A DNA stretch of 64,000 nt, from contig NC_079487.1 of assembly GCF_020520425.1 (NCBI RefSeq), forward strand, positions 112,564,141-112,628,140. The letters run 5' to 3'. The translations under genes were made by a program, and so were the position numbers. Source of the stretch: Spinacia oleracea. Taxonomy: Eukaryota; Streptophyta; Magnoliopsida; Caryophyllales; Amaranthaceae. Shown in pieces: positions 1-45,153 of the stretch. Within the stretch, counting starts at the first letter, position 1. Each line of letters begins with the position of its first letter. Below the pieces are notes generated by a model that searched no databases, was not told the DNA's origin, and was given only the letters and a program-made list of their open reading frames with translations.

Positions 1-1309
1 GGTATGTTGATCAAGGAATTGTAGCCTCAGATTCAGATGGCTCATCTTCTTTCCGAAAAACATTACATAGGCAAGAGGAGAAGTGGTGGCTACCGGTACC
101 TCGGGTACCTGCAGGTGGCCTACAAGAGAATTCTAGGAAGCAGCTTGATCATAAACGTGAATGCACCCACCAAATACTCAAAGCAGCCATGTCTATCAAC
201 AGCATGGTTTTAGCTGAAATGGATGTTCCTGAATCCTTCTTGGAAACCCTTCCAAAGGTCTCAATTTTTCAAATTGTTTATCAACCTAGGGTATTATTAT
301 TATGACTTATTATTTCTGAAATCTGATATTGGCAAAAATTAATGATATCTTCAGAATGGAAGAGCATGCCTAGGAGACATGATATACCGGTATATCACAT
401 CAGACCACTTCTCTCCTGATTGTTTGCTTGATTGCCTCGACCTATCATCTGAGCATGTTGCTCTTGAAATAGCAAATCGTGTGGAAGCAGCTATATATGT
501 CTGGAGACGAAGACACCATCCAAAACCCGTTACTAATAATCCCAATCGAACCACCACAAAATCATCATGGGGAATGGTCAAGGATCTAATGGCTGATGGA
601 GGAGATAAAAGAGAGCTCCTCGCTGAAAGAGCTGAAAGGTTGTTGCTATGCTTGAAGCAGCGGTTCCCTGGCCTCACACAAACTTCTCTAGATACTAGTA
701 AAATCCAGTTCAACAAGGTTAAAATTTCATGTTCCTTGTACATTTTGCATTCATTTTATTTATCTTCATCCCCCTAAATGAAATTCCTTGTTGCAGGACA
801 TAGGAAAATCCATTCTGGAAAGCTACTCAAGAGTTTTGGAGAGCTTGGCTTTTAACATCGTGGCACGCATAGATGATCTGCTATATGTTGATGACTTAAC
901 AAAACATACAGATAAGTTATCCTCAGCACCGAATGTGAGTGTCATGGCTCATAAGAAGGTTTCAATACCACATTCCGTGCCTTCCTCGTGCACACCATAT
1001 GGATCATCTATTAACACTCCGAGCTTCTCACCTGCACATCTAATCAGCCCAGCAAGGGGTGTAGACAGAACTCCTTTTGTTAACCGCGAGATTAGTAAGC
1101 CTCACAAGCGCGGTATTGGGGTTAAGAGAGTACTCACTAACTACCTAGGTGGTGAGTTAAAGCCAAAGAGTTCTGCAAACCAAATAGAAGCTAGTCTTCC
1201 TGCAACAAAGTCAAGTATTGGGTCACCTGCATCATCTCTTGATGATGCAGAGAACATTGATCCTCAGAGAGTCTCGATAACCCACCAGAAACCAAGCAGA
1301 TTTCGATGA
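1..1309 (+). CDS. ROPGEF: Rop guanine nucleotide exchange factor (RopGEF, PRONE domain), 3' part
   Basis: PRONE-domain proteins load GTP onto plant Rho GTPases (ROPs) at the plasma membrane in polar growth and signalling. Three phase-0 exons are visible: 3-257 (5' end outside the window), 355-717 and 797-1309, with GT..AG introns 258-354 and 718-796; the stop is TGA 1307-1309. About 376 residues are encoded. Family-typical PRONE stretches are [76 protein letters not shown] and [20 protein letters not shown]. After the PRONE core comes a variable tail rich in Ser/Pro, with a basic [12 protein letters not shown] motif near the end, as in several RopGEFs where the C-terminus is regulatory. Nothing looks broken in the visible part. 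Identity as a RopGEF is firm; the paralogue number is not determined. Confidence 0.95.
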
Positions 1310-15226: not shown

Positions 15227-18200
15227 ATGGTTAATGATGTTATCAACAACGATGATGACGATATGATAGTGCGGTCAGATTCGGAATCTGACGAAGAGGA
15301 GCACCCTCAATCGATGGCGAGGTCGCAGCCAAGCAGAGCTACGACCGCCACAAACGCAGGACCTCCGATTCCAACTAGGGAAGAGCTCACTGCGGCCATG
15401 ACCATCATGCAAAACTTCCTCTTCAATGAGAAGCAGCAAGGATTGGCAAAAGACCGCAGAGAAGAGAGGAGGACTAGGCGCAGGCTGAACGAGCAGCCCA
15501 GTGTAGAGGTGTCCAGACCCGAACGAGAGCTCCTCCCCTTGACAGGAACACACCTGACGTCGAAATGGATGGAAAGCACGTGGCACACCCAAAAAAGGGC
15601 ACAACAGCAACCAGATTGGTTTGCAAAACTATCGCCTACTCCAACAGCTCTCCAAAGCGAATCGACTACTCGTAACACTCGGATCCGAAGCTCGGTGCTC
15701 AGCAGGTTGAGGCCATCGGTCCACTCAAGGCTAAGACCCTCGATCCATACGAGACTCGGGGTAGGCGAATCAAGCAGATCTGGCGAACGACCCGAGGTCA
15801 GTAGCCGAGAAAGAAGAAGAGACAGGAGGCATGATCGAACCCCTAGCCCCCATCGTACGCCCGAACGTTCTAATCACAGAACCTCGGCGAACGAAGGCAT
15901 CAGGGCTAGACTCGGGAAAAGAATCATGACTCCCACGTCATCCCCTTTCTCGGACGAGCTGATCAGGGAAGAGATACCAAAGGTAAGACTGCCAGCACAC
16001 CTGACGTATAGCGGAATCACTGATCCAAGGGATCATGTCATCTCCTACGAGCAACAAATGTTCTTGAGCCCCTACTCCGAAGCATGTTGGTGTAAATATT
16101 TCCCAACCACGCTAACCGGAGTAGCGGGAGAATGGTTTAGATCGCTGCCGAAGGGATCGATCAAAAGCTGGAAGAAGCTGAAAAAGAGATTCTGCACACA
16201 GTTCGTGAGCAACAATCGCCCCGAGCGAACCACGGCAGAACTGACCTCGATTCAACAAGAAAAAGACGAAAGTCTAAGAGAGTTCATGGCCAGATTCATG
16301 AAGGAATCAACAAGCATACCAAACTTGCAGCCACATGTGGCCATCTTCGCCTTGAAACACGCGCTCCAGGAGGGGAAATTTCGTGATAAGCTCTCGATGA
16401 AAAACCCCTCCAAAATAGCCGACGTACTCCAAATGGCTGATGCGTTCATCAGAACCGAAGAGTTCAACAAAGCCGCTGCAAGGTTGAAAGGATCGTCGGA
16501 TCCGAGAGAAGGAAAAAATACCCAGAGCAAGCCCGAGGGCGGCTCAAGGAAAGGGAAGGAGAAAGTAGGAGTTAGAGAGACGAGCCCAAAGAAAGACGGG
16601 AGAAGGGGTGAACTTCAACCCAGATACACTAACTACACTCCACTAACTCTGCCCCGAAAAGAAATCTTTAGCCTCAACAGAAATGATGAAAAGTGGAAAC
16701 TACCTGGGAAGCTCAAGTCCAACCCAGCTCGGAGAAACAAGAACAAATGGTGCGAGTTCCATGATGACTTCGGTCACCACACCGAAGAATGCAACTCGCT
16801 GAAAGACAACATTGAGGACCTCGTTCGCCGAGGTTACCTGAAACAGTACTTGTTAGACCGAAGGGAGGAAAAAGAAAAGGCCACTAGTGGCAAACAACAC
16901 GAGCAACCCCAGAAAAGGGTCTACGAAGCAACAGGGCACAAGAAGAATGACATCCTAGTGGTGTTCGGGGGACAGAAGTCTGGCCAGGCCAGCAAGAAAT
17001 ACCTAAGAGCTCTCTCCCATCGAGTCAACTTCAGCACAGTGGGAGACAACCAACCACACCCCCCGAACATGACCTTCACTGCCGATGATTGCTTCGGAGT
17101 CCAGTACAAACATGACGATCCTCTAGTCATTTCCATGGACCTCAATAACCACAACGTACACCGAGTGTTGGTCGACGGAGGGAGTGCCGTCAACATCATC
17201 TTCAGAAACTGCTTCGAGCAGCTGATCCTCGAAGAATCAGAGGAAGCACCGGCGAAAGTTAGTTACCCCCTGATCGGATTCAACGGATCCGCAGCCATCC
17301 CTCGAGGAAAGATCACCTTGCCAGTCACAGTGGGTGAAGGCCAGGCAGCAAAAACCCTTCGGGACGAATTTCTGGTGATGGACTGCGACTCCGTATACAA
17401 CGTAATCATGGGAAGAACCATGATTCACAAGATGCAAGCAGTCCCCTCCACATACCATCAGCTGAGGATATACGTCTCGGACGCAGGATTCGCCGAACGA
17501 ATTAGAGGTGATCAAGAGGTTGCAAGAAGAACCTGCCACACCGCCGTCCGAAATCCCAAATTAGGAGACAGTTCCGAGGCGGAGAAAGATGCTCCAGGAG
17601 AGGAGAGTGAGGCAAAAAGGAGGAAAGCAGGCATGAGCAGCTTATCTCCCGCAGAGGTCGATGCCCGCCCCGAAACCCTGTCTCCCGAACCAGATCAGGA
17701 AATGGAAGATATCTTCCTCGAGGAAGGTTCAGACAGGAGCGTCCGAATAGGCAAGGGCCTAAGCTCGGGGCTCCGAATCGATTTGATCCAACTACTCAGG
17801 GATCACAAAGACATTTTTGCATGGTCGGCAGCAGATATGCCAGGGATAAATCCGAAGCTGATTTGTCACAAGCTGGACGTCAACGCCGAAGCTCGGCCAA
17901 TCAAAAAAAAGAAGAGGAATTACTCCTCGGAGAAAAACAGAGCCATCGCCGAAGAGGTGAAAAAGTTGCAAGAGGCCGGATTCATCGAGCCATGCATGTA
18001 CCCAAAATGGTTGGCCAACGTGGTGATGGTCAAGAAAGCGAACGGCTCCTGGCGAATGTGCGTGGATTTCACAGATCTGAACCGAGCCTGCCCCAAAGAC
18101 TGCTATCCCCTGCCAAGGATAGATCAATTGGTTGACTCCACCAGCGGCCATGCACTGCTCAGCTTCATGGATGCCTTTTCAGGCTACCATCAAGTGTTCA

Positions 18201-20980
18201 TGCACCCCGACGACAGGGCAAAGACAGCATTCATCACAAGCGCAGGAGTGTTTAACTACAAAATGATGCCTTTCGGCTTGAAAAATGCCGGAGCCACCTA
18301 CCAGAGGCTAGTTGATCACGTCTTCGCCGACCAGAAAGGGAGGAATGTCGAGGTCTATGTGGATGACTCCATCGTAAAAAGCATCAAGGAGGAAGACCAT
18401 GTCAAAGACTTGGCAGAGACCTTCGGAAATCTGAGGAAATACAGCATGAAGCTGAACCCAAAAAAATGCATCTTCGGGGTGAAGTCAGGGAAGTTCCTCG
18501 GATTCATGGTGAGCGAAAGAGGAATCGATGCGAACCCAGACAAAGTCCAAGCGGCATTGGATTTACCTGAGCCGAAGACCAAGAGAGATGTGCAGAGGCT
18601 AACCGGCAGGTTAGCCGCACTAACAAGGTTCATATCAAAAGCCTCGGACAAGGGAGCCCCCTTCTTCAAAGCACTGAAACCAAAGAACCTCCCCGGAGGA
18701 GAAGCAGAACCAGTCAAGAAAAAGGGGGTCCCGAGGAAGGTGGATCCCGAACTGATATGGGAACAGGAGCAGAAAGAAGCTTTTCAGCAACTCAGAGCCC
18801 ACCTAGCTCAACTGCCGACACTGGCCAGACCAAAGGAGGGGGAAACCCTATACCTATATGTCGCAGTCAGCCCTGGAACCGTCAGCGCAGTGCTTCTTCG
18901 GGAAGAAGAGAAGAAGCAACAGCCAATCTACTTCACCAGCCGAACACTCACAGGGGCCGAGACTCGGTACCCGCTCATCGAGAAAGTCGCATATGCAGTA
19001 GTGGTAGCTGCACGAAAACTGAGGCCATACTTCGACTCCCACCAGATCACAGTACTAACTGACCAACCGCTCGAGAAAGTACTCGACAAAATAGAGAGGT
19101 CAGGAAGATTGGCTGCCTGGGCCTTCGAACTATCAGAGTTCGGCATCAAATATCAGCCGAGGACCGCAATCAAAGCACAGGCGTTGGCAGACTTCTTGGC
19201 CGAGTGCTCATACCAGGAAATGCTGGATGATACGAAAAGCACTTGGGAGGTCTTCACTGACGGATCTTCCACAATAAACGGCTCAGAAGCAGGAGTTGTA
19301 CTAATCCCCCCGACGGGGAAAAGCATAGAGTATGCATTGAAGTTCGGCTTCAAAGCAACTAACAACGAGGCCGAATATGAGGCCGCAATCGCAGGGATAG
19401 AGCTTTGCTTATCCCTGGAGGCCGAGCATGTTTGCCTCAAAACTGATTCCCAGCTTGTAGCCAACCAGATCCGAGGGGAGTATGAGGCCAAGTGGCCCAG
19501 CATGACAACTTACTTAGCAAAAATTAAATCCTTAACGTCAAAGTTAAGATCCTTTGAAGTCATTCTCATCCCCCGAGGACAAAACACGCAAGCAGACGCA
19601 CTGTCAAAACTCGCAAGCTCAACACTCATCGACCTAAACAGGTCGGTCCACGTGGAAGTTCACCAAGAGAGAAGCATTGACTTGCTACCCACCACAGTAT
19701 GCAGTTTACGTACCGAACCCAGCTGGATGGACGCAGTAGTTGCATACAAAGAAAGGGGAGAACTTCCCGAAGATAAGCTGCAGGCGAGAAAACTGAAAAG
19801 ATTCAACAAGTGGTTCATCATCAGCGCCGAAGGAGAACTCATGAGGAAATCATTCTCCGCTCCGCTGCTAAAATGTGTGGGTCCAACAGACGCTGACTAC
19901 ATCCTAAGAGAAATCCACCTCGGGATATGCGGAAACCACATCGGAGGCAGGACATTGGCACATAACGCCCTTCGGGCCGGATACTGGTGGCCCACTATGG
20001 TTTCCGAGGCAAAGCAGATGGCAAGGAAATGCGAGAAATGCCAAAAGTTCGCACCAGCCATCCATCAACCAGCTCAAACCCTACAATCAACACTGTATCC
20101 CTTACCATTCGCACAGTGGGGGTTAGACATCATTGGTCCCTTCCCCTCAGCTACGAACCAGAAGAAGTGGTTGATTGTAGGAGTCGACTATTTTAGCAAA
20201 TGGATCGAAGCTGAAGCTGTCTCCTCCATCACCGAACCTCAGGTCCGCAAGTTCATATGGCAGAACATCATCACAAGGTTCGGCATACCAAGACTGATGG
20301 TCTTAGACCACGGGAAACAGTTCGACAACACCCCGTTGCAAAAATGGTGCAAACAGTTCGGCATACACCTAGCTTACTCGGCAGTTTGCCACCCACAAAG
20401 CAACGGGCAAGCCGAAGCTGCTAACAAACTCATCCTCAATGCACTCAAGAAAAGAGTCGAGGATGACAAAAACAAATGGTTAGAAGAGCTACCCGGAACG
20501 CTATGGTCCCTTCGGACCACTGAGAAAGAAGCTACCGGGCAAACACCGTTCCACCTTGTATATGGATCCGAAGCTGTCATCCCTGTGGAAATCGGAACAG
20601 AAAGCTTGAGGATCCAGGCATACAACAGGTATGATGGGCTCCAAGGAGAAAGCAATAACCAACTTCTGTCCGAAGCTCTCGATCTACTGGACGAAGCTCG
20701 GAACGATGCGAGGACACTCAACGCAGCTTATTTGCAGAGGGTCAACAAGCATTACAACCGAAGAGTCAACGCCAGACCCCTAAAAGTCGGTGATCTAGTA
20801 CTCAGAAACGCCGCCTCGGTTCAGAAAGGACGGATCCATGGCAAACTCTCAGCCACTTGGGAAGGACCATACATCATCCATTCCGAAAGAAGGCCAGGCA
20901 CGTTTATGCTGAAACAGTTAGATGGAACAATTTTGAAGAACCATTGGAATACCGATGTTCTCAAGAAATATTTTGTATGA
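15227..20980 (+). CDS. gag-pol polyprotein of the Tat-type retrotransposon (1917 aa)
   Basis: One uninterrupted frame encodes structural and enzymatic functions for reverse transcription and integration. Domains in order: basic, Arg-rich N-terminus; retrotransposon gag domain at about residues 285-380 (TGVAGEWFRSLP); a Cys/His knuckle CEFHDDFGHHTEEC at about 507-522; aspartic protease with VDGGSAVNIIF at about 648 (DGGS at the active site); reverse transcriptase at about 915-1090 with MCVDFTDLN and YVDD; gypsy RNase H at about 1208-1280; second archaeal-type RNase H at about 1340-1465 starting FTDGSS; integrase HHCC zinc motif at about 1563-1605, then the DDE core (LDIIGPFP, LDHGKQFDN, NGQAEAANK). 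ATG 15227 follows the leader and gives the full gag. Fusion of gag and pol in one frame is usual for Tat elements. No defect visible. Confidence 0.96.
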   Translation: MVNDVINNDDDDMIVRSDSESDEEEHPQSMARSQPSRATTATNAGPPIPTREELTAAMTIMQNFLFNEKQQGLAKDRREERRTRRRLNEQPSVEVSRPERELLPLTGTHLTSKWMESTWHTQKRAQQQPDWFAKLSPTPTALQSESTTRNTRIRSSVLSRLRPSVHSRLRPSIHTRLGVGESSRSGERPEVSSRERRRDRRHDRTPSPHRTPERSNHRTSANEGIRARLGKRIMTPTSSPFSDELIREEIPKVRLPAHLTYSGITDPRDHVISYEQQMFLSPYSEACWCKYFPTTLTGVAGEWFRSLPKGSIKSWKKLKKRFCTQFVSNNRPERTTAELTSIQQEKDESLREFMARFMKESTSIPNLQPHVAIFALKHALQEGKFRDKLSMKNPSKIADVLQMADAFIRTEEFNKAAARLKGSSDPREGKNTQSKPEGGSRKGKEKVGVRETSPKKDGRRGELQPRYTNYTPLTLPRKEIFSLNRNDEKWKLPGKLKSNPARRNKNKWCEFHDDFGHHTEECNSLKDNIEDLVRRGYLKQYLLDRREEKEKATSGKQHEQPQKRVYEATGHKKNDILVVFGGQKSGQASKKYLRALSHRVNFSTVGDNQPHPPNMTFTADDCFGVQYKHDDPLVISMDLNNHNVHRVLVDGGSAVNIIFRNCFEQLILEESEEAPAKVSYPLIGFNGSAAIPRGKITLPVTVGEGQAAKTLRDEFLVMDCDSVYNVIMGRTMIHKMQAVPSTYHQLRIYVSDAGFAERIRGDQEVARRTCHTAVRNPKLGDSSEAEKDAPGEESEAKRRKAGMSSLSPAEVDARPETLSPEPDQEMEDIFLEEGSDRSVRIGKGLSSGLRIDLIQLLRDHKDIFAWSAADMPGINPKLICHKLDVNAEARPIKKKKRNYSSEKNRAIAEEVKKLQEAGFIEPCMYPKWLANVVMVKKANGSWRMCVDFTDLNRACPKDCYPLPRIDQLVDSTSGHALLSFMDAFSGYHQVFMHPDDRAKTAFITSAGVFNYKMMPFGLKNAGATYQRLVDHVFADQKGRNVEVYVDDSIVKSIKEEDHVKDLAETFGNLRKYSMKLNPKKCIFGVKSGKFLGFMVSERGIDANPDKVQAALDLPEPKTKRDVQRLTGRLAALTRFISKASDKGAPFFKALKPKNLPGGEAEPVKKKGVPRKVDPELIWEQEQKEAFQQLRAHLAQLPTLARPKEGETLYLYVAVSPGTVSAVLLREEEKKQQPIYFTSRTLTGAETRYPLIEKVAYAVVVAARKLRPYFDSHQITVLTDQPLEKVLDKIERSGRLAAWAFELSEFGIKYQPRTAIKAQALADFLAECSYQEMLDDTKSTWEVFTDGSSTINGSEAGVVLIPPTGKSIEYALKFGFKATNNEAEYEAAIAGIELCLSLEAEHVCLKTDSQLVANQIRGEYEAKWPSMTTYLAKIKSLTSKLRSFEVILIPRGQNTQADALSKLASSTLIDLNRSVHVEVHQERSIDLLPTTVCSLRTEPSWMDAVVAYKERGELPEDKLQARKLKRFNKWFIISAEGELMRKSFSAPLLKCVGPTDADYILREIHLGICGNHIGGRTLAHNALRAGYWWPTMVSEAKQMARKCEKCQKFAPAIHQPAQTLQSTLYPLPFAQWGLDIIGPFPSATNQKKWLIVGVDYFSKWIEAEAVSSITEPQVRKFIWQNIITRFGIPRLMVLDHGKQFDNTPLQKWCKQFGIHLAYSAVCHPQSNGQAEAANKLILNALKKRVEDDKNKWLEELPGTLWSLRTTEKEATGQTPFHLVYGSEAVIPVEIGTESLRIQAYNRYDGLQGESNNQLLSEALDLLDEARNDARTLNAAYLQRVNKHYNRRVNARPLKVGDLVLRNAASVQKGRIHGKLSATWEGPYIIHSERRPGTFMLKQLDGTILKNHWNTDVLKKYFV

Positions 20981-36856: not shown

Positions 36857-38947
36857 GTTTATAATGTTGTCATAAAGTTTGTTGGAAATGTAAAATTACT
36901 TTACTATTTCCAAAATTAACTAAATTGTTTTTTTTTTAAATTAGGAGGGAAAGTTATGCCCTAGGATAGTCGACTATAATGATGTCCACTTGACTCAATC
37001 CTATTACACTGCAATAAATATATTAGATAATGGGTAAGTAAGGGGGTCGAACTCTCGGGGATCAAACATTTTCTATACTAGCTACAAACATGTAACTACT
37101 AGCACACTTTACTTCAATAAACAATCGTTGGTTTTGACTTGTTCCTACAACTTGTCACTAATCGGGCGAACGGTATAACCTATGCGAAAGAATAGGTCTA
37201 TAAAAGTGGGATTCCACCTAATATAGTCATGGCGAATGAAATACTCTCCTACTCTACTCATATATGAACACAAGGAAATTTATTTGCTAATCTTGGGGCT
37301 ATTGCGCAATAGCACAAAAAATCCTCACATGATGGTCACAATGTACATGTGGTTCAAAGAATCTAGTGTTGTGTTTTTGATTTCATATCTAGGCTACGGT
37401 CGGTCTCCCGAAAAAACAAAGGCTGATGAGGCTCAACACATACTATAGCCACTCTCCTATGGTCAACATGAAGAACAAGCGATTTTCCGTGTCAAATGGA
37501 GCTTTTCGGTGTCAACTACTCCGTACTCAATGCCTATGTAGGAGAACCGCCATAGACCCATAGTCTATGTATCCCACTTTTCCTTAGGTTTGGAACAAGA
37601 CAACAAACAAGCAAGATTAACCTAAGTTCATCTAATATGCTCAAAAATCCATCTCAAGGAAAGAAATAACATCACAACAACTAGCAAAGACTAGCATACA
37701 CCAAGATTAGATACAAGTAAACAGAGAGGGAGTCTTCATGCCATAATTATAGTACTTAAACCTAGAAGATCTAAGAAAAACATACATGAAAACATGATAT
37801 TCTATTTTGGGTAAAGAAACTCAAACTAGAAGATGAACGCCAAGAACATATAATTTTGGGTAAAAAAAAAACTCAACCTCAAATCATGAACTACATTTTC
37901 AGAACATGTAAATAAAACAATAAAGGAAAGCAATAAAGAGGTAAGTTAAGAAATTATACTACTTAGTGCAGAATTGAAATAACTAAATAGAAAATTAAAC
38001 CAAGATAAAAGTGTTTAAGAAAAATTAAGAAAGCAAAATAAAGTGGTGAGAGTGAGAGAATCCCTTGGAGCCTAGGATTCTCCAAACTTCAGAAAATACA
38101 CTCCACACCTGTTGGCTCTAGGGTAATATTCTATTTATTCAAGGGGGAACATGTTACCAAGAAGCGGGGGCAGACGTCAAGTAAGCACAATGCTCAATAA
38201 GTCTGCAAGGGGACCATAAAACTTTACGTAGGGTGGCATAGCAAAGATTGTACAGTCCGTGGGGTGCCTTGTGCAAGGTATGTCAGACAGTTCGTGCAAA
38301 GACGTTGCGCAACCCATGCAAGATGTTGCACGGTCCGTGTCAATGCTCTCCAGAGATGTTGAACGGTGCGTGTTAAGACTGTGCCCCTAGCTACTCCACT
38401 TCTCTTCTTCTCTTCTCCTTTGAATAGAAGTACTCCTTAGCCCTTGGTCTTGACTAGCTTGATGGGAGCTTTCTATTCCAACTCCTCCTCTTTCATGCGA
38501 GTCCTTTGATAATGGTGATGAAGGGGGAAATGAGGAGGTTGCGGGGCTATACTCGTTGCTCATGATCGTGGTTTTTCTCTCATTTGGATAAACGGGACAT
38601 TCATATTTTGTGCGTCACTTTAGCTTAACCTGAAAATAGGGAGAGAGAAGCTATCCATATATAGAAAACAAGAAAAGAACTCATTTTATGATATAAATAT
38701 ATTATTTTCTTAAACTATGTGCCAAATGGAGCCGCACATGCCAATTATTGCAAAACGGAGAGAGTATGTAGAAGAGGGTTTCTCCATTTTTGACTAGAAA
38801 AAATTGAGATTTTTGACTAGAAATAGTATTTATACGGAGTTGTTGCTACTCTTTTATACAAGTAGTACATGTTGGCAGACGTGTTTTCATTCTTTCTTCA
38901 AGCAGAAGCATTGTCAAAGGAGTTATAAATAGTATCTGTAAGAAGTA
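36857..38947. other. intergenic, unrecognised
   Basis: No gene supported. Mixed-composition sequence with short open frames. At about 38230-38380 a short degenerate motif related to GTTGCACGGTCCGTG repeats. It may be remnants of an old retroelement, but I find no diagnostic motif. Confidence 0.4.
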
Positions 38948-39365
38948 CTCCCTCCATTCCTTTTTGTTGTACCCATAAGGAATGTTGGGGGTATTTTAAG
39001 AAAACTGAATCTTGGGTTGTATTGGGATATGGGTAATGATTGGGTGTAAGAATAATGATTGTGTGTAAGAAAAAGAATAAAGTAAAGAGAGAGAAAGTAT
39101 TAAATTAATTGGGGAAAAAGTAGATATTTATTAAAGTATTGAAATAAATCAGCAAATAAATTCAGTCACATGGGGCCATGGGACCCATCTGAGATTACAT
39201 TGACCAATAAGAAAGCAGCAAACAATGAATCACGTTTTTTTGGCTGGAAATTTTGGCCAAACTGTTGACTTTCACTTTTCCCTCCAAAATTTTCCCAAAA
39301 TAAAAAAACAGGGGATTACATTTTTCCCTCCAAATTTTTGAGGGGTTGTAAAAGTGAATTCCCTT

Positions 39366-39373
39366 TATAAATA
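39366..39373 (+). promoter_or_regulatory. TATA box of the MLE transposase gene
   Basis: TATAAATA, 111 bp upstream of the transposase ATG, inside the left end of the element. Confidence 0.7.
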
Positions 39374-39483
39374 GGGTCACTTTCTCCCACAAAAGAACAA
39401 AATCTGACTAAAACCAAGTTCAATAAATACACCAAAATTTCTTCCTCAATTCAGCATTAAAGAGCAAAAAAACAGGGGACTTA

Positions 39484-41130
39484 ATGGCTTCAGATCAAGA
39501 GGATGACGATTTCCTCGGTTTTTCTGATGATGAAGGCGACGGCATTAACTCCGATTCTGACTCGGAGGAAGGTGATGATGCTGCTGACTTGGTACAAGCT
39601 TCTCAAAATACTGCTGCTGAATTTGGGGACATTGGGTTTAATGAAGATGTACCAAACAGCACTGAATATGTACAGCAAGTACCAGAAGTAGAAGGGGAAG
39701 GGCAGCAGCAAACTACCAACTTTCAAGAGGTACCCTTTCTTTTTGATTTGAACTTTCCACCACCATCAGAAAATGCATCACCTCATCATCATCAAACAGC
39801 AACACACACAACAGATCATCACAAGCCAAGGACTCCAAGAATAAATAATGAATTGAGGCTAGAAATATTGGTGTTCCTGCTCAATAGAAAGATTCCAGAT
39901 TCAGAAACTTTGTTGTATGGGGCAATAAGGGATGCAGTCATAGAATATGATTACACCAGAAAAACCATAGGCAAAATATGGGACAAAGCAAAGAAATAGA
40001 AGGCAGCAATGAATTCATATATTGTGCAAAGCCAATATCACAGATGTGGAAGGAAAAAGGTTCAAGTCTCCTATGACTCAATTGCAAAAATAGGCATGGG
40101 GGACAGAACATGCATCGTAGATCTTGCAAGAATGCTGAATTTGGGACCAACAACAGTATGGAGGCTCATCAAGAGGAAAATTATAAAGCCACACTCAAGT
40201 CCCTTGCATCCAGGCATTTCAGAAGCATGCAAAATGGCAAGGATAAGGTGGGCAATCAGACTGATAATGGACTACACTATACCACAAGAACCAACCTATT
40301 ACAGCATGTATGACTTCATTCATATTGATGAGAAGTGGTTTTATTTGACTCAAAAAAACCAGAGAGTTTATCTTGCAAACAATGAACCCTATCCACACAG
40401 AAGTGCAAGTTCAAGAACCAAGATACCAAAATTCATGTTCATGGCAGCAGTAGCCAGACCAAGGTGGGGTGAAAATGGGGAATGTGAATTTGATGGTAAA
40501 ATAGGCATATTTCCATTCACAAATGCAATTGCAGCCAAGAGGACATCAAAAAACAGACTCAAGGGGACCATTGAAACAAAGCCAGTGAAGTCTGTAAATC
40601 AAATAGAGACAAGGGCAATGATGATCAACAACCTACTTCCAGCAATCAAGGCCAAGTGGCCACCACATGAAGGGGAAAAGGTCATCTATATCATTCAAGA
40701 TAATGCAAAGGCACATATATTGCAAAGTGATCCTGAATGGCAACTACACTACAAACAAGATGGGTTCACTTTTGTGTTGACTCAACAGCCAGCAAACAGT
40801 CCAGATTGCAACATCTTGGACTTGGGATTTTTCAGGTCAATACAATCACTTATGCACAAGAAAATGCCTAAAACTGTGGAGGACTTAAGTGGAGCAGTGT
40901 ATGATTCTTTTAATGAGTTGCATCCTAAGACATTGTCTAATGTGTGGATGACATTACAGTTTGTTTCTAATGAGATTCTAAAACACAAAGGCAACAATGA
41001 TTACCAACTTCCACACAACAAGAAGAAGATTTTAGAAGATGAAGGCAGACTGCCAGAGCAAGTCAAAGCACCTATATGGGCAGTTAATGAATGCATGCAA
41101 CTCTATGATGAATGGAAAGCAAACCAGTGA
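39484..41130 (+). pseudogene. mariner-like transposase (DD39D) with one in-frame stop
   Basis: 549 codons in one frame, broken only by TAG 39997-39999. The first 171 residues are an acidic N-terminus (DDDFLGFSDDEGDG) then a helix-turn-helix region (INNELRLEILVFLLNRKIPD). After the stop come a second HTH (LNLGPTTVWRLIKRK) and the catalytic core: first Asp in HIDEKWFYL, second in IIQDNAKAH, third in ILDLGFF, with exactly 39 residues between the second and third. This DD39D spacing is diagnostic of plant mariner-like transposases, which cut and paste at TA. All catalytic residues are present. The stop would separate the N-terminal HTH from the rest unless read through, or unless translation restarts at the Met at 40009. 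Confidence 0.93.
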
Positions 41131-41319
41131 AGCAAAGTGAAAACAATTAGATAACTTTTTGTGTTTTGGGGACATGTTTTTAAAATGACAAGTAAAACCA
41201 CTGTGTCACTTTTGTAAGCTTAAATGCAAGCATAACATGTAGGCAAAACATTTTGTAAGCATATCTTTTGGAAGCATCAATGAATGAATCTCATGTTTAA
41301 GTTTAGTAAAGTTTTTTTT

Positions 41320-41475
41320 CTTCATTCTTATTCACATCAACATAGAGTAATCAAGGCAAGGCAATAAACAAGGCAGCATTGGCAGAAAAAGTACAAGGCA
41401 CAAGAGGTAAGGCAGCATTGGCAACACTATAAACAAGGCAGCATTGGGTTCTTAAGAACAAGGCAGCATTTGCAA
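41320..41475 (+). repeat. degenerate AAGGCAGCATTGGCA repeats
   Basis: ACAAGGCAGCATTGGCA-like words occur about five times just downstream of the transposase, before the hairpin cluster. Confidence 0.6.
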
Positions 41476-41488
41476 TATCACAACTCTA

Positions 41489-42911
41489 AACACATCGGCT
41501 TCAAAATGGAAATAAATAATAATATCACATCATTTTCAGATGGAAATTATTCCCATTTTGAAACCGATGCGTCAAAAGATGTAATTTTGACAAAAACAAT
41601 CAATTCATCATTGATAACACATGGAATATGCCTCACATAAACAAAGAATCATAAATATCTCAGAATGTCCCCAAAAATCATTGAATCAAACCCTTTCCAA
41701 TTAAACTTAGCTCCTGAAAAACATCATGGATGCTAATGGTGCATGAGTTTGATTGAAAAACAAAGGGTTTGACACTCATAAAATGAAGACTCATCACAGA
41801 TCACAAGGCATAAGTACAAAAACTTTATCACATCACATCTCTAAACACATCGGCATCCAAATGGAAAGAATGCATATCACATCATTTTCAGATGGAAATT
41901 CTTCCCAATTGGATGCCGATGTGCCAAAAGATGTAATGGACAAGGAAACAAGAACAAAGCAGCAAAAACAAGGAAGCAATGAACAAGGCAACATCATTGA
42001 ATCTCAGTTAAGTTGTTTTACATCATTGACAGATTTGTTTCTAAATGATTTACAACCTCACCACCAATTCACCAAAGGGGATACTAGATCAATCAATGAT
42101 GTGACATGATCTGTATTCCCTTTGGTGATTGGTGGTGAGGGACATGTTTAGAATCAAATATCTCAGGTTATCAACACATGCATCACAGAATATCAACACT
42201 AACATCATTGAATATCAGAAACACATTATACATGTTTTGCAATACATGAATTGCCTCTCCTGTCTAACCTGACATAAGATCTCAGAATGTCCCCAAGCAT
42301 CATTGACACAAACCCTATCCCCTAACACTTAGCTCCGGAGGAGCATCAATGATGCTAATGGTGCACAAGTGTTATTGGAACATTGGGTTTGAGTCTCAGC
42401 AAATGAAAGACACATCACAGATCAAGCATAACAATAACAATCAACAATGCATCAGATCACCATGAACTGATCAAAACATAGGGTTTGAACCTCATCAAAT
42501 GAAAGACTCATCACAGACCTCCACTGATTCATGGGACATGAAGCATTAAACAGATCATTAACATGTAGGGTTTCATTTCTCAGACATATTGACACACATC
42601 ATTGATCAAGTAGTTTCAATACTATCATATCTTTAACATTCTTCTGCCGAACGAAATGATTGATATTCACATTCCATTGTGTGAAATGACATTCACTCCG
42701 TTCGACAAAAGAAGTTAAAGGACAATTATCAAAACAAAGATCTCAGAATATCAACAATCACATCATTGAAGATCACAAACCTCCTAATATTGATCTCAGA
42801 ATGTCCCCAAGCATCATTAAAACAACTCCAAACCACAAACACTTAGCGCCCGAGAAATATCATTACTGATACTAATGGCAGCACGAGTATTTGTGGTTAG
42901 TTGGACTTGTT
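41489..42911 (+). repeat. cluster of at least seven imperfect hairpins inside the MLE
   Basis: Foldbacks of 79-116 nt with stems of about 25-40 bp: 41489-41573, 41683-41775, 41845-41923, 42038-42153, 42306-42395, 42631-42720 and 42821-42911. The first and third share CACATCGG and an ATGGAAAT-type arm; the second, fifth and seventh share the preceding motif CTCAGAATGTCCCCAA. Between related hairpins the two arms change together (ACATCGGCTTCAAAATGG pairs with its own complement, ACATCGGCATCCAAATGG with its own). The fourth pairs CCTCACCACCAATTCACC with GGTGATTGGTGGTGAGG. They resemble miRNA-like precursors in size. Function unknown. Confidence 0.8.
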
Positions 42912-43434
42912 CCTCAGCAAAAAAAAGACTCATCATCGATCACAACAAATAAAGGGACATTATTGTATCCTAAAGGGACATGCTTGGACATTAAGCATTC
43001 AACACCAGGCCACACTGAGAGGACTGAAATAACCCAAACCCTATCCCCAAATTATGTTCATTTCATGCCTTTACTAAACCAAAACATAGTTATACTGATC
43101 AAATCTCATACTCACCAAAGCATCATATTTATCATACACAAAACATACCATAAAACAGGGGACATTAAGCCATCAAATCATGTTCATCACACAGACAACA
43201 TTCCACAAAATTTCATAACCATATGGAAACACCATCATCCAATCATCATTATCAATATCAATTTCATAACATCATTATCTAACATCAACATCCATACAAC
43301 TAATCACAACATCATCATCCAAACAACAACACCCCTGGCCAACAACAGATCACAGTTGTTGGCATCCACCTTATGACTCCACAGCTAGCCAGCATTCAAT
43401 AAAATGAAAAAAGGGAGAAAGGAGACAGACTTAT

Positions 43435-44621
43435 CTAAGCATCATCAGACGCTGAAGCCGATTTTTTTCCCTTTTCTCCTTTCTTTGAGGAGGGATAACC
43501 AGATGAAAGTTGTCCTGGAGACCCAACAGCATCACCATTCTCATTTTCACACTCCCCAACATACACCAGATCAAATGAATCATACCCACTTGGTTCCTTG
43601 CAATCAATAGGGGACAAACAACATGATTAGTGCCCTCATAAAATAACAGGGGACCATGAATTAAAATCAGATTTAATCAAACAACTCAAAATAAAGTTCC
43701 AAATAATTTCAGATCACCATGGTTACCACATGCAATGAGATAAATGAGAGCAAATCACACAATAATTCCATTAAAATCCAACTAATTATCCGAATACATC
43801 CAGATCCCATTTTTACCCAAAAAATGTGAAATAATATCCCAAATACATCCAGATCCCATTTTTAACCACATGCAATGGGAAATCAGATCAACAAAACACA
43901 TGAATATTCCGATTTTCTTCAAATAATTTCCAAATAGCTCCAAATAAAATCAGAACTCAATTTTAACAACATGCAATGAAAAAACAGAGCACAAAATACA
44001 ATCAGAACTCAATTTTAACAACATGCAATGAGAAAACAGAGCAAAGAATAACATAAAAAGCCCGAATGAATCCAACAGATCTCCAAAAAATTCCCAAAAA
44101 TTTCGAAATAATACCAGATCTGCATTTTTAACACATGCAATGGGAAATCAGACCAACTTATCCAAAAAATAATCCGAGTTTAATGAACAATACTCCAAAT
44201 AAATCCAACATTAATCAAATCCCACTTTTTTAGACATGCAAACAATCATCAAACCATTTTAATAAAACCGACATCAATAACCCTAAATAAATCGCAAAAA
44301 ATCAAAAGTAATACCTCATCGGAATCTCCTTCACCGAAAAAAACGCAGATCTGAGGGAGTGGGTTTCCGATCGTCATATTTTGACTCAACCTCCTCTCCT
44401 GGCTCCACTTCCCTCTTCCGAAACCATTCTTCCAAATAGTTTCGAGTACTCGTATTTTCTTTTTGGGCCAAATACAGATTGTTTTTATATTCGGCGGAGT
44501 AGGAATGCTCGTTATTGGGACAGTTGCACTTGGATCCCCAATCACAGTTGGAATCGGGGATTCTTTGACCAGAAGTTCCCACCCCAGAATCACCTCGAGT
44601 TCTAGACAAAGAAGAACCCAT
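43435..44621 (-). pseudogene. second, convergent gene of the MLE, unknown function
   Basis: Minus strand: exon 1 at 44621-44315, exon 2 at 43596-43435, linked by a GT..AG intron (donor GATGAG|GTATTA, acceptor TTGCAAG|GAACC). Exon 1 starts MGSSLSRTRGDSG, has a Cys/Trp cluster (NCDWGSKCNCPN) and a charged helix (LEEWFRKREVEPGEEVESK). Exon 2 is acidic then Lys/Ser-rich (DSFDLVYVGECENENGDA, KKGEKGKKSASASDDA) and ends at TAG. A run of seven A's at about 44337-44343 shifts exon 1 out of frame with the donor. With a run one base shorter the acidic GEGDSDE segment would lead in phase into exon 2, so this copy seems to carry a single-base frameshift. I recognise no family. The gene model is inferred. 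Confidence 0.5.
43720..44240. repeat. ACATGCAATG-centred repeats in the intron of the second MLE gene
   Basis: CCACATGCAATGGGAAATCAG / AACATGCAATGAGAAAACAG words recur about six times at irregular 70-130 bp spacing, separated by CCAAATA..CCAGATCCC sequence. Confidence 0.65.
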
Positions 44622-44925
44622 AAAGTACCAGAAAAACAGAGATCAGCGACGATTAGGGACCAAAAAGGGGACAAAAATAGAGGGGATCTGATCGGAAAAT
44701 GAATCTGAGTAATTTTTATGAACGTTTTTCGGCGAAAACGTTTCAGATTTGTGAGATTTGGAGAGGAAAACCCATATCAGAGGCGGAAAACCTAGGGTTT
44801 TCTCAAGAACAGGGGAGGAATTTTAAGAGAGAGAGAGAGTGAAATAAGAGAGAGAGAGAGATCCGAAGAGGTGAGAGAGATAAATCAGAATGAGAGGTGA
44901 GAGAGGGATTGTGAGATAGGGACGG

Positions 44926-44933
44926 GTTATAAA
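44926..44933 (-). promoter_or_regulatory. TATA-like box of the second MLE gene
   Basis: TTTATAAC on the minus strand inside the right end of the element. A (CT)n leader (44829-44862 on the plus strand reads as GA repeats) lies between it and the ATG at 44621. Confidence 0.5.
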
Positions 44934-45153
44934 GGGAGGGGGGTGGGGTTAGGTTAATTAATTAAATAGGGTGGGTGGGGTAAAAGTGGGTGGGAAAGGG
45001 TAGAATCTTAGGGTATTTTTTGTAAATAGTGGGGAATCTTAGGGTAAATTGGTAAAAAAACTATGGCCAAAAATAGTAAAGATTCAGTAGGGGAACAACA
45101 AAAAGAAACGCCAAAAAAGGAAATGGGAACAACAAAAAGGAATGGAGGGAGTA

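Follow-up and report, generated by a model that had tools for sequence, protein, structure and literature searches.

The 64-kb window analyzed here (the whole stretch of DNA under study, 64,000 nucleotides) contains a mariner-like element with seven fold-backs at about 41466–42929. Judged by folding, strand asymmetry and paired changes between copies, these hairpins very probably constitute an RNA structure under selection. The array is probably also a set of Dicer-cut, pri-miRNA-like small-RNA precursors. That the resulting small RNAs would be guides against host silencing or defense is a more tentative proposal, for which the odds are somewhat adverse.

A Mariner-Like Element Carries Seven Hairpins between Converging Genes

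All seven fold-backs that the initial annotation had placed inside a mariner-like transposon were located (H1 to H7; Table 1). The element combines CTCCCTCC-type terminal inverted repeats (TIRs) with a TA duplication (38946–38947 and 45152–45153), one of the criteria by which plant Tc1/mariner elements are recognized. TA also lies on both sides of most other element copies among the matches listed; the flanks of one truncated copy (L021) are TA and TT. The transposase frame is open in 26 of 35 full-length copies, which comprise 34 of the 39 fetched copies plus the window copy. Compared with DDE_3 and HTH models, the transposase remained below all cut-offs (DDE_3 E value 0.015), and its part from 40009 had no match among PDB sequences. 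By eye, it has a D..D arrangement with 39 residues before the last D, which lies in LDLGFF; DD39D spacing is the signature of plant mariner-like transposases.

On the opposite strand lies a predicted second gene, ORF2, with one intron. The predicted product is 155 aa long in the four copies read. Of 35 copies, 31 retain an in-frame exon 1; the frameshift, shared by the window copy and 3 of the other 34, is one base in a T run. Acidic in character, the predicted protein includes the stretches CDWGSKCNCPNNEHSY.. and LEEWFRKR. ORF2 matched no Pfam family above the cut-off, the weak matches (E values 0.016–0.021) being far below the cut-offs. ORF2 is a possible accessory or anti-silencing protein. 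The predicted ORF2 is followed on the same minus strand by the hairpins in the order H7, H6, H5, H4, H3, H2, H1, such that the array sits between two converging genes, the transposase (plus) and predicted ORF2 (minus).

Table 1. Positions in the window of the element, its predicted genes, the hairpins and cassette remnants
Feature	Position	Strand	Remarks
Mariner-like element	38948–45151		6.2 kb; TIRs CTCCCTCCATTCCTTTTTGTTG..., CTCCCTCC type; from TIR match and reading
Transposase frame, 548 aa	39484–41130	plus	In-frame TAG at 39997–39999 in the window copy
ORF2 exon 1 (predicted second gene)	44315–44621	minus	One extra T shifts the frame in the window copy
ORF2 intron (predicted)	43597–44314	minus	GT-AG ends
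ORF2 exon 2 (predicted)	43435–43596	minus	C-terminal end ..KKSASASDDA*
Hairpin H1	41466–41597	minus	Grouped with H3
Hairpin H2	41667–41790	minus	Cassette type
Hairpin H3	41825–41943	minus	Grouped with H1
Hairpin H4	42056–42140	minus	Single type; weaker pairing out to 42033–42159
Hairpin H5	42281–42420	minus	Cassette type
Hairpin H6	42631–42720	minus	Single type
Hairpin H7	42803–42929	minus	Cassette type
Constant 3′ flank of H7 cassette, AATGATGCTTGGGGACATTCTGAGATC	42792–42821	minus	
Other copies of constant 3′ flank	42278–42307, 41656–41685	minus	
Degenerate copies of constant 3′ flank	about 42741–42767, 42183–42209	minus	
Decayed cassette	about 42440–42535	minus	5′ flank and arm only
Decayed cassette	about 43028–43055		One arm
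Leftover arm of lost hairpin	42249–42267	minus	Whole hairpin present in old copy L056

The Hairpins Fold Better Than Shuffled Sequences and Are Mostly More Stable as Minus-Strand RNA

Each hairpin was folded against 300 dinucleotide-preserving shuffles. The fold-backs surpassed these controls, with minus-strand z-scores from −2.4 (H2) to −11.2 (H3); in the order H1 to H7, the values were −9.5, −2.4, −11.2, −9.1, −3.1, −8.4 and −5.1 on the minus strand and −6.1, −2.8, −8.1, −9.1, −3.1, −5.1 and −3.3 on the plus strand. The energies of H2 and H5 are the weak ones, and the case for these two rests on the cassette they have in common. We also scanned positions 30–54 kb of the window (481 windows of 120 nt, 20 shuffles each). 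On the minus strand, z fell below −6 in 3 of 31 array windows vs. 1 of 450 others, and on the plus strand in 2 of 31 vs. 0 of 450; at milder cut-offs, the two strands were alike within the array. The shuffle z-scores and this 24-kb scan rule out chance fold-backs.

Six of the seven hairpins are more stable as minus-strand RNA (−57, −39, −66, −61, −48, −44 and −46 kcal/mol for H1 to H7) than as plus-strand RNA (−34, −32, −48, −67, −40, −30 and −30 kcal/mol), the exception being H4. Relative to its own shuffles, the minus strand is ahead for H1, H3, H6 and H7, equal for H4 and H5, and slightly worse for H2. Arm mismatches were counted with an alignment that treats both strands alike, and the transition mismatches yielded 42 G.U on the minus strand vs. 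10 on the plus strand (P = 4.5e-6 against equal odds); in H4 the count runs opposite to that of the other hairpins (1 minus vs. 2 plus). G and T are more frequent on the minus strand, a composition skew that accounts for part of the G.U bias (67% expected), so that the bias was also computed against base composition (P = 0.023). The case for the minus strand, opposite to the transposase, as the strand that would form the RNA is thus good but not beyond doubt.

Three Hairpins Are Built as Cassettes with a Variable Lower Stem

The proposal that the hairpins form at least two related groups plus single ones was confirmed, the groups being H1/H3 and H2/H5/H7, with H4 and H6 single. H2, H5 and H7 differ in the lower stem, while the loop-side stem (..GCTAAGTG..) is common to all three, as are the flanks on the 5′ (GATGAGTC..) and 3′ (AATGATGCTTGGGGACATTCTGAGAT) sides. 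The arm pair CATCGGCTTCAAAATGG/CATCGGCATCCAAATGG quoted in the initial annotation is correct, as is the sequence of its common lead-in, CTCAGAATGTCCCCAA, which on the minus strand is each cassette's 3′ flank rather than a lead-in. Among H2, H5 and H7, 6–12 pair cells are changed on both sides with pairing kept when read on the minus strand and 6–13 on the plus strand, and 15–19 (minus) and 18–26 (plus) changed cells are broken; these ranges vary with the structure used, and the structures come from the minus fold.

The constant 3′ flank matches 614 genome places at up to 3 mismatches (control, 0). The motif TCAATGATG occurs nine times in the window, always within the array and seven times on the minus strand, where 1.15 occurrences would be expected by chance. 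Arm 21-mers had no match to the transposase, ORF2 or the TIRs at a penalty of up to 3.5, which rules out that the arms were copied from the transposase or the TIRs. Outside the array, 13 arm matches were found in the window, and those within the element all lie on the decayed arm at about 43028–43055.

In a separate observation, GGGGAC occurs 24 times in the window vs. 13.7 expected, a count reached in 0 of 100 shuffles. Twelve of the 24 are inside the element (39475–44672): 9 are plus-strand occurrences beyond the cassettes, and the 3 minus-strand ones belong to cassette 3′ flanks.

The Array Spreads with a Young, High-Copy Family

The genome searched has 894,210,420 bases in 242 contigs, and the matches fell on six chromosome-sized contigs. 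BLAST found at least 40 array copies that are 99–100% identical (40 of 284 candidates scored). Whole-genome pattern matches at 124 places for H7 (control, 0) and 154 for H4 (control, 1) suggest that array copies number 124 to 154. As in miR820-type cases, the array is carried by an autonomous DNA transposon and multiplies as the element spreads. Each of the 39 fetched copies (L009 to L047), which were picked for full-length array matches, has all seven hairpins. In one further copy, L048, chosen for three scaffold matches and read as far as H3, a 558-bp tandem duplication has doubled H5 and H6.

Across 40 young arrays, 39 of 636 paired columns vary, vs. 52 of 865 unpaired columns. Twenty of the 39 stem variants keep pairing and 19 break it; variants that pair on one strand only number 14 for the minus and 8 for the plus strand. 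Most stem variants are confined to one copy and thus probably arose after insertion. In young copies, changes to the stems appear nearly neutral, and pairing is not visibly guarded. Nucleotide diversity (π) is about 0.0025 for H2, H4, H5 and H7, 0.0065–0.0094 for H1, H3 and H6, 0.011 for the transposase, 0.022 for the ORF2 intron and 0.0008 for one spacer. The low values of H2, H4, H5 and H7 lend weak support to constraint, given that the copies were picked as best array matches, that H1, H3 and H6 are higher, and that one spacer is lower still.

Two features of these copies lie outside the array. The stretch 5′ of the transposase (38990–39483) has a π of 0.10 between copies vs. 0.001–0.026 for the rest, as if subfamilies had exchanged 5′ ends, or as would result from an alignment artifact. 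In L020 and L040, the element match begins only at element base 1993 or 2188, with repeat-like DNA before it; the array and the ORF2 side are present.

In an Older Lineage Both Arms of H4 Have Changed and Still Pair

An older copy at C4:92980282 (L053, L056), located through a near-match to an H4 arm, shares 93% identity with the young copies across most of the array, falling to 87% across the H4 stretch. Both arms of its H4 differ in sequence and the fold is retained, with less stability (−45 vs. −61 for the young H4). Of 169 pairs in H4 to H7 compared between this one old copy and the young consensus (5 pairs with gaps were set aside), 152 are the same, 6 single changes keep pairing and 5 break it, and all 6 double changes keep pairing. 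Permutation at paired sites gave a mean of 0.65 kept doubles, and 0 of 20,000 trials reached 6; five of the six doubles are in H4 and may represent one or two events. The H6 double change turns a GC pair into CG. In H4, two of these changed pairs, out of five, have become U.G, which simple DNA-level arm copying would not produce.

Read as minus-strand RNA, 6 of 11 single changes are kept; on the plus strand, pairing survives in 4 of 6 doubles and in 1 of 11 singles, a comparison that leans to the minus strand because the pairs were taken from the minus fold. In the old copy, folding favors the minus strand for H5, H6, H7 and one additional hairpin, and the strand energies of its H4 are mixed (−57.0 vs. 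−49.7 for 201 nt and −38.0 vs. −42.8 for a 130-nt window). Together, G.U on the minus strand where the plus strand has A.C, and the compensatory changes, argue for a structure at the RNA level rather than for a feature of DNA binding or replication. Thus, among the small-RNA precursor, transposase-binding and replication-linked roles initially considered, the first is the best supported and the DNA-level options are disfavored; the strand bias rules out transposase-binding palindromes as the main role. The alternative posed at the outset, selection on structure or recent copying of one arm from the other, is decided in part: the six paired doubles of the old copy speak for selection, and the near-neutral young variants do not. 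Compensatory changes, the test proposed for related elements, were found in one old copy; among young copies, about half of the stem variants break pairing.

Rates of change differ between the hairpins. H4 has changed faster than the spacers and upstream stretch (17/96 vs. 43/603, P = 0.0015), and H5, the most conserved of the four hairpins compared, more slowly (2/127, P = 0.014). As wholes, H6 and H7 have rates like the spacers and upstream stretch (P = 1.0 and 0.70). On its loop side, H7 has no changes in the old copy.

Exact matches to both arms of the rewritten H4 core (13 and 14 nt) were located at 7 places, spread over five chromosomes (control, 0). One of these was read and three others are close to other element matches; we infer that they represent a lineage that transposed. 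The extra hairpin of the old copy lies in the H5–H4 spacer (−49), and the young family keeps one arm of it. As read from these copies, the array is one whose hairpins are gained, duplicated and lost.

All Seven Hairpins Have miRNA-Like Duplex Geometry, and Scans Gave No Convincing Target

The criteria for a plant miRNA gene allow up to 5 mismatches and up to 3 asymmetric bases in the duplex of a single-stranded precursor. With these limits, all seven hairpins provide at least one acceptable 21-nt duplex with a 2-nt overhang on the minus strand (111 registers, H2 with one register only), as do six of the seven on the plus strand (52 registers). Searches of Rfam returned 10 matches at E values up to 1, all to miRNA families and all on the minus strand. 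No match reached its Rfam gathering score, so the array corresponds to no curated miRNA family there, and names such as MIR1509 and MIR5649 are rejected as identities, reflecting resemblance of shape only. Four arm fragments are absent from the main text of a spinach study with 3402 novel miRNAs (PMC9029227).

Target sites were sought in the whole genome with seven arm 21-mers from H3 to H7, one register per arm, at up to 3 mismatches including four flank positions designed to exclude the element; 4-mismatch sites would be missed. H6-5p and H6-3p each had one match (controls, 1 and 0), which for H6-5p is the element's own arm letter by letter and for H6-3p is the element. H4-5p had 24 matches (control, 1), of which 21 have a common motif (CCTCACCAAAGG..) and resemble a repeat family; its match at C4:92980282 is the old lineage of the element. 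Six of the 7 matches of H5-3p (control, 0) look like the element by letters and place, the other being C4:181681586. H3-5p had 26 matches (control, 0), of which 23 belong to a single repeat family (L054), at two sites in its coding sequence. The best H3-5p site, C4:59588270, has 2 mismatches and lies in a KUP/HAK potassium-transporter exon (PF02705, E value 2.9e-17); as a target it was taken to be a chance match. H5-5p had 5 matches (control, 4), the best at C6:120390083 with 2 mismatches, and H7-3p had 39 (control, 16), all with 3 mismatches and some in element copies. Across the seven 21-mers, no site outside the element had fewer than 2 mismatches with flank positions counted, and the excess over controls consists mainly of repeat families or element copies, that of H7-3p standing apart. 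In the search for arm targets among host and MLE genes that had been advised at the outset, the seven 21-mers gave no convincing host site, and within the element the transposase, ORF2 and TIRs were free of matches at the penalty given above.

The L054 repeat family (C1:4377844–4378044 and eleven further places) appears coding by eye, with ELDADLAILDVPLGV/ELDANLPIPDVPLGV, and has no Pfam family. Two of its sites, 57 bp apart, match the H3 arm with 3 mismatches.

Small-RNA Precursors or Structure without Guides

Constant flanks, 21-nt duplex geometry in all seven hairpins, clustering, and duplication and loss are what is expected of a polycistronic pri-miRNA. We envisage a second transcription unit opposite the transposase, with the predicted short spliced ORF2 followed by the seven hairpins, whose minus-strand transcript would be a polycistronic pri-miRNA-like RNA. 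Host Dicer-like enzymes would cut each hairpin into duplexes of about 21–22 nt, and the small RNAs would work in trans; their likeliest targets would be host transcripts that restrain the transposon, in the way that rice miR820 targets OsDRM2. A variable stem within constant flanks would let guides change while the processing signals stay; indeed, a stem that changes on both arms within a constant scaffold is as guide change would look. The fullest version of this model, a mobile arsenal of a cut-and-paste transposon, in which a multi-guide miRNA array and an accessory protein share one transcript and individual stems are rewritten inside constant processing scaffolds as host targets or defenses change, so that a single element would conduct an RNA arms race, is possible but on the unlikely side.

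The scans without a convincing target lower the guide reading but do not remove it, as plant miRNAs may tolerate up to four mismatches in their targets. The same scans, together with the position of the array between converging genes, agree with a selected RNA structure that provides no guides and would end, protect or insulate the minus-strand ORF2 transcript, for example through Dicer cuts that stop antisense read-through into the transposase. Only pairing would matter to such a structure, as the strand-specific pairing, the rewritten stems and an H4 that outpaces the non-hairpin stretch (P = 0.0015) would allow. The nearly frozen H5 (2/127) and the unchanged loop side of H7, however, exceed the needs of bare pairing, and seven separate hairpins of different kinds seem too many for this purpose; we regard it as unlikely, if the strongest of the alternatives. 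It is a good deal less probable that the hairpins supply siRNAs directed at the element itself, as a Muk-like autoregulator would, or serve as decoys for the loading of Dicer and Argonaute: the long near-perfect stems of H1, H3 and H4 would also be good siRNA substrates, but the lack of arm 21-mer matches to the transposase, ORF2 and TIRs at a penalty of up to 3.5 counts against self-direction, a point that spares the decoy form. A DNA-level origin with no RNA role (template switching, arm-to-arm conversion, nested MITEs or transposase-binding sites), similarly improbable, would suit the clustering of double changes in H4 (5/6) and the lack of clear pairing constraint among young copies, but not the G.U bias to one strand in a strand-neutral count, the U.G pairs among the changed H4 pairs, the clean GC-to-CG change in H6, or the better minus-strand folding of H5, H6, H7 and the extra old-copy hairpin.

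Relation to Known Transposon-Encoded miRNAs and Anti-Silencing Proteins

Small-RNA precursors in an element of this kind would have their closest precedent in the miR820 family of rice CACTA transposons. There, miR820 represses OsDRM2, its guide and target site have co-evolved, and its precursor resembles this host gene (PMC3459959). The likeness lies in a fold-back precursor inside a DNA transposon whose numbers rise as the transposon spreads (PMC3459959). Unlike miR820, the present array comprises seven hairpins of several kinds in a mariner-like element, and the scans found no host source or target. Osa-miR437, miR812 and miR818 are described as derived from Stowaway/mariner MITEs, which likewise makes Tc1/mariner DNA a hairpin source (PMC10004981); there, the MITE and its terminal repeats themselves form the hairpin, whereas here the hairpins are internal to a full-length element that has its own transposase frame, and they have no TIR match. 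The same source describes MIR395 as an example of clustered plant MIR genes, with several related precursors adjoining (PMC10004981), but these are host genes with conserved mature sequences, whereas the present cluster moves with a transposon and its stems differ. VANC proteins, the anti-silencing proteins of VANDAL transposons (PMC10398659), provide a parallel for a second gene beside the transposase as a possible counter-defense; in contrast to VANC, a DNA-binding protein, the 155-aa ORF2 is without a recognized family and accompanies an RNA array. By titles and abstract openings, no mariner-like element with a hairpin array was found in the open PMC literature among the matches listed.

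With miR820, a transposon that sets a single kind of miRNA against a silencing gene of its host is already known. If the precursor and guide readings are true, an array of structurally selected hairpins that turn over in a high-copy, recently active element would make transposon-encoded counter-silencing a multi-target system, and would offer a natural scaffold-plus-variable-stem design for the study of how plant Dicer reads precursors. If the hairpins are not guides, they would still be an unexplained, apparently selected RNA structure in more than 100 copies of a plant genome.

Elsewhere in the window, a 1917-aa open frame at 15227–20980 resembles, by eye, an LTR-retrotransposon gag-pol.
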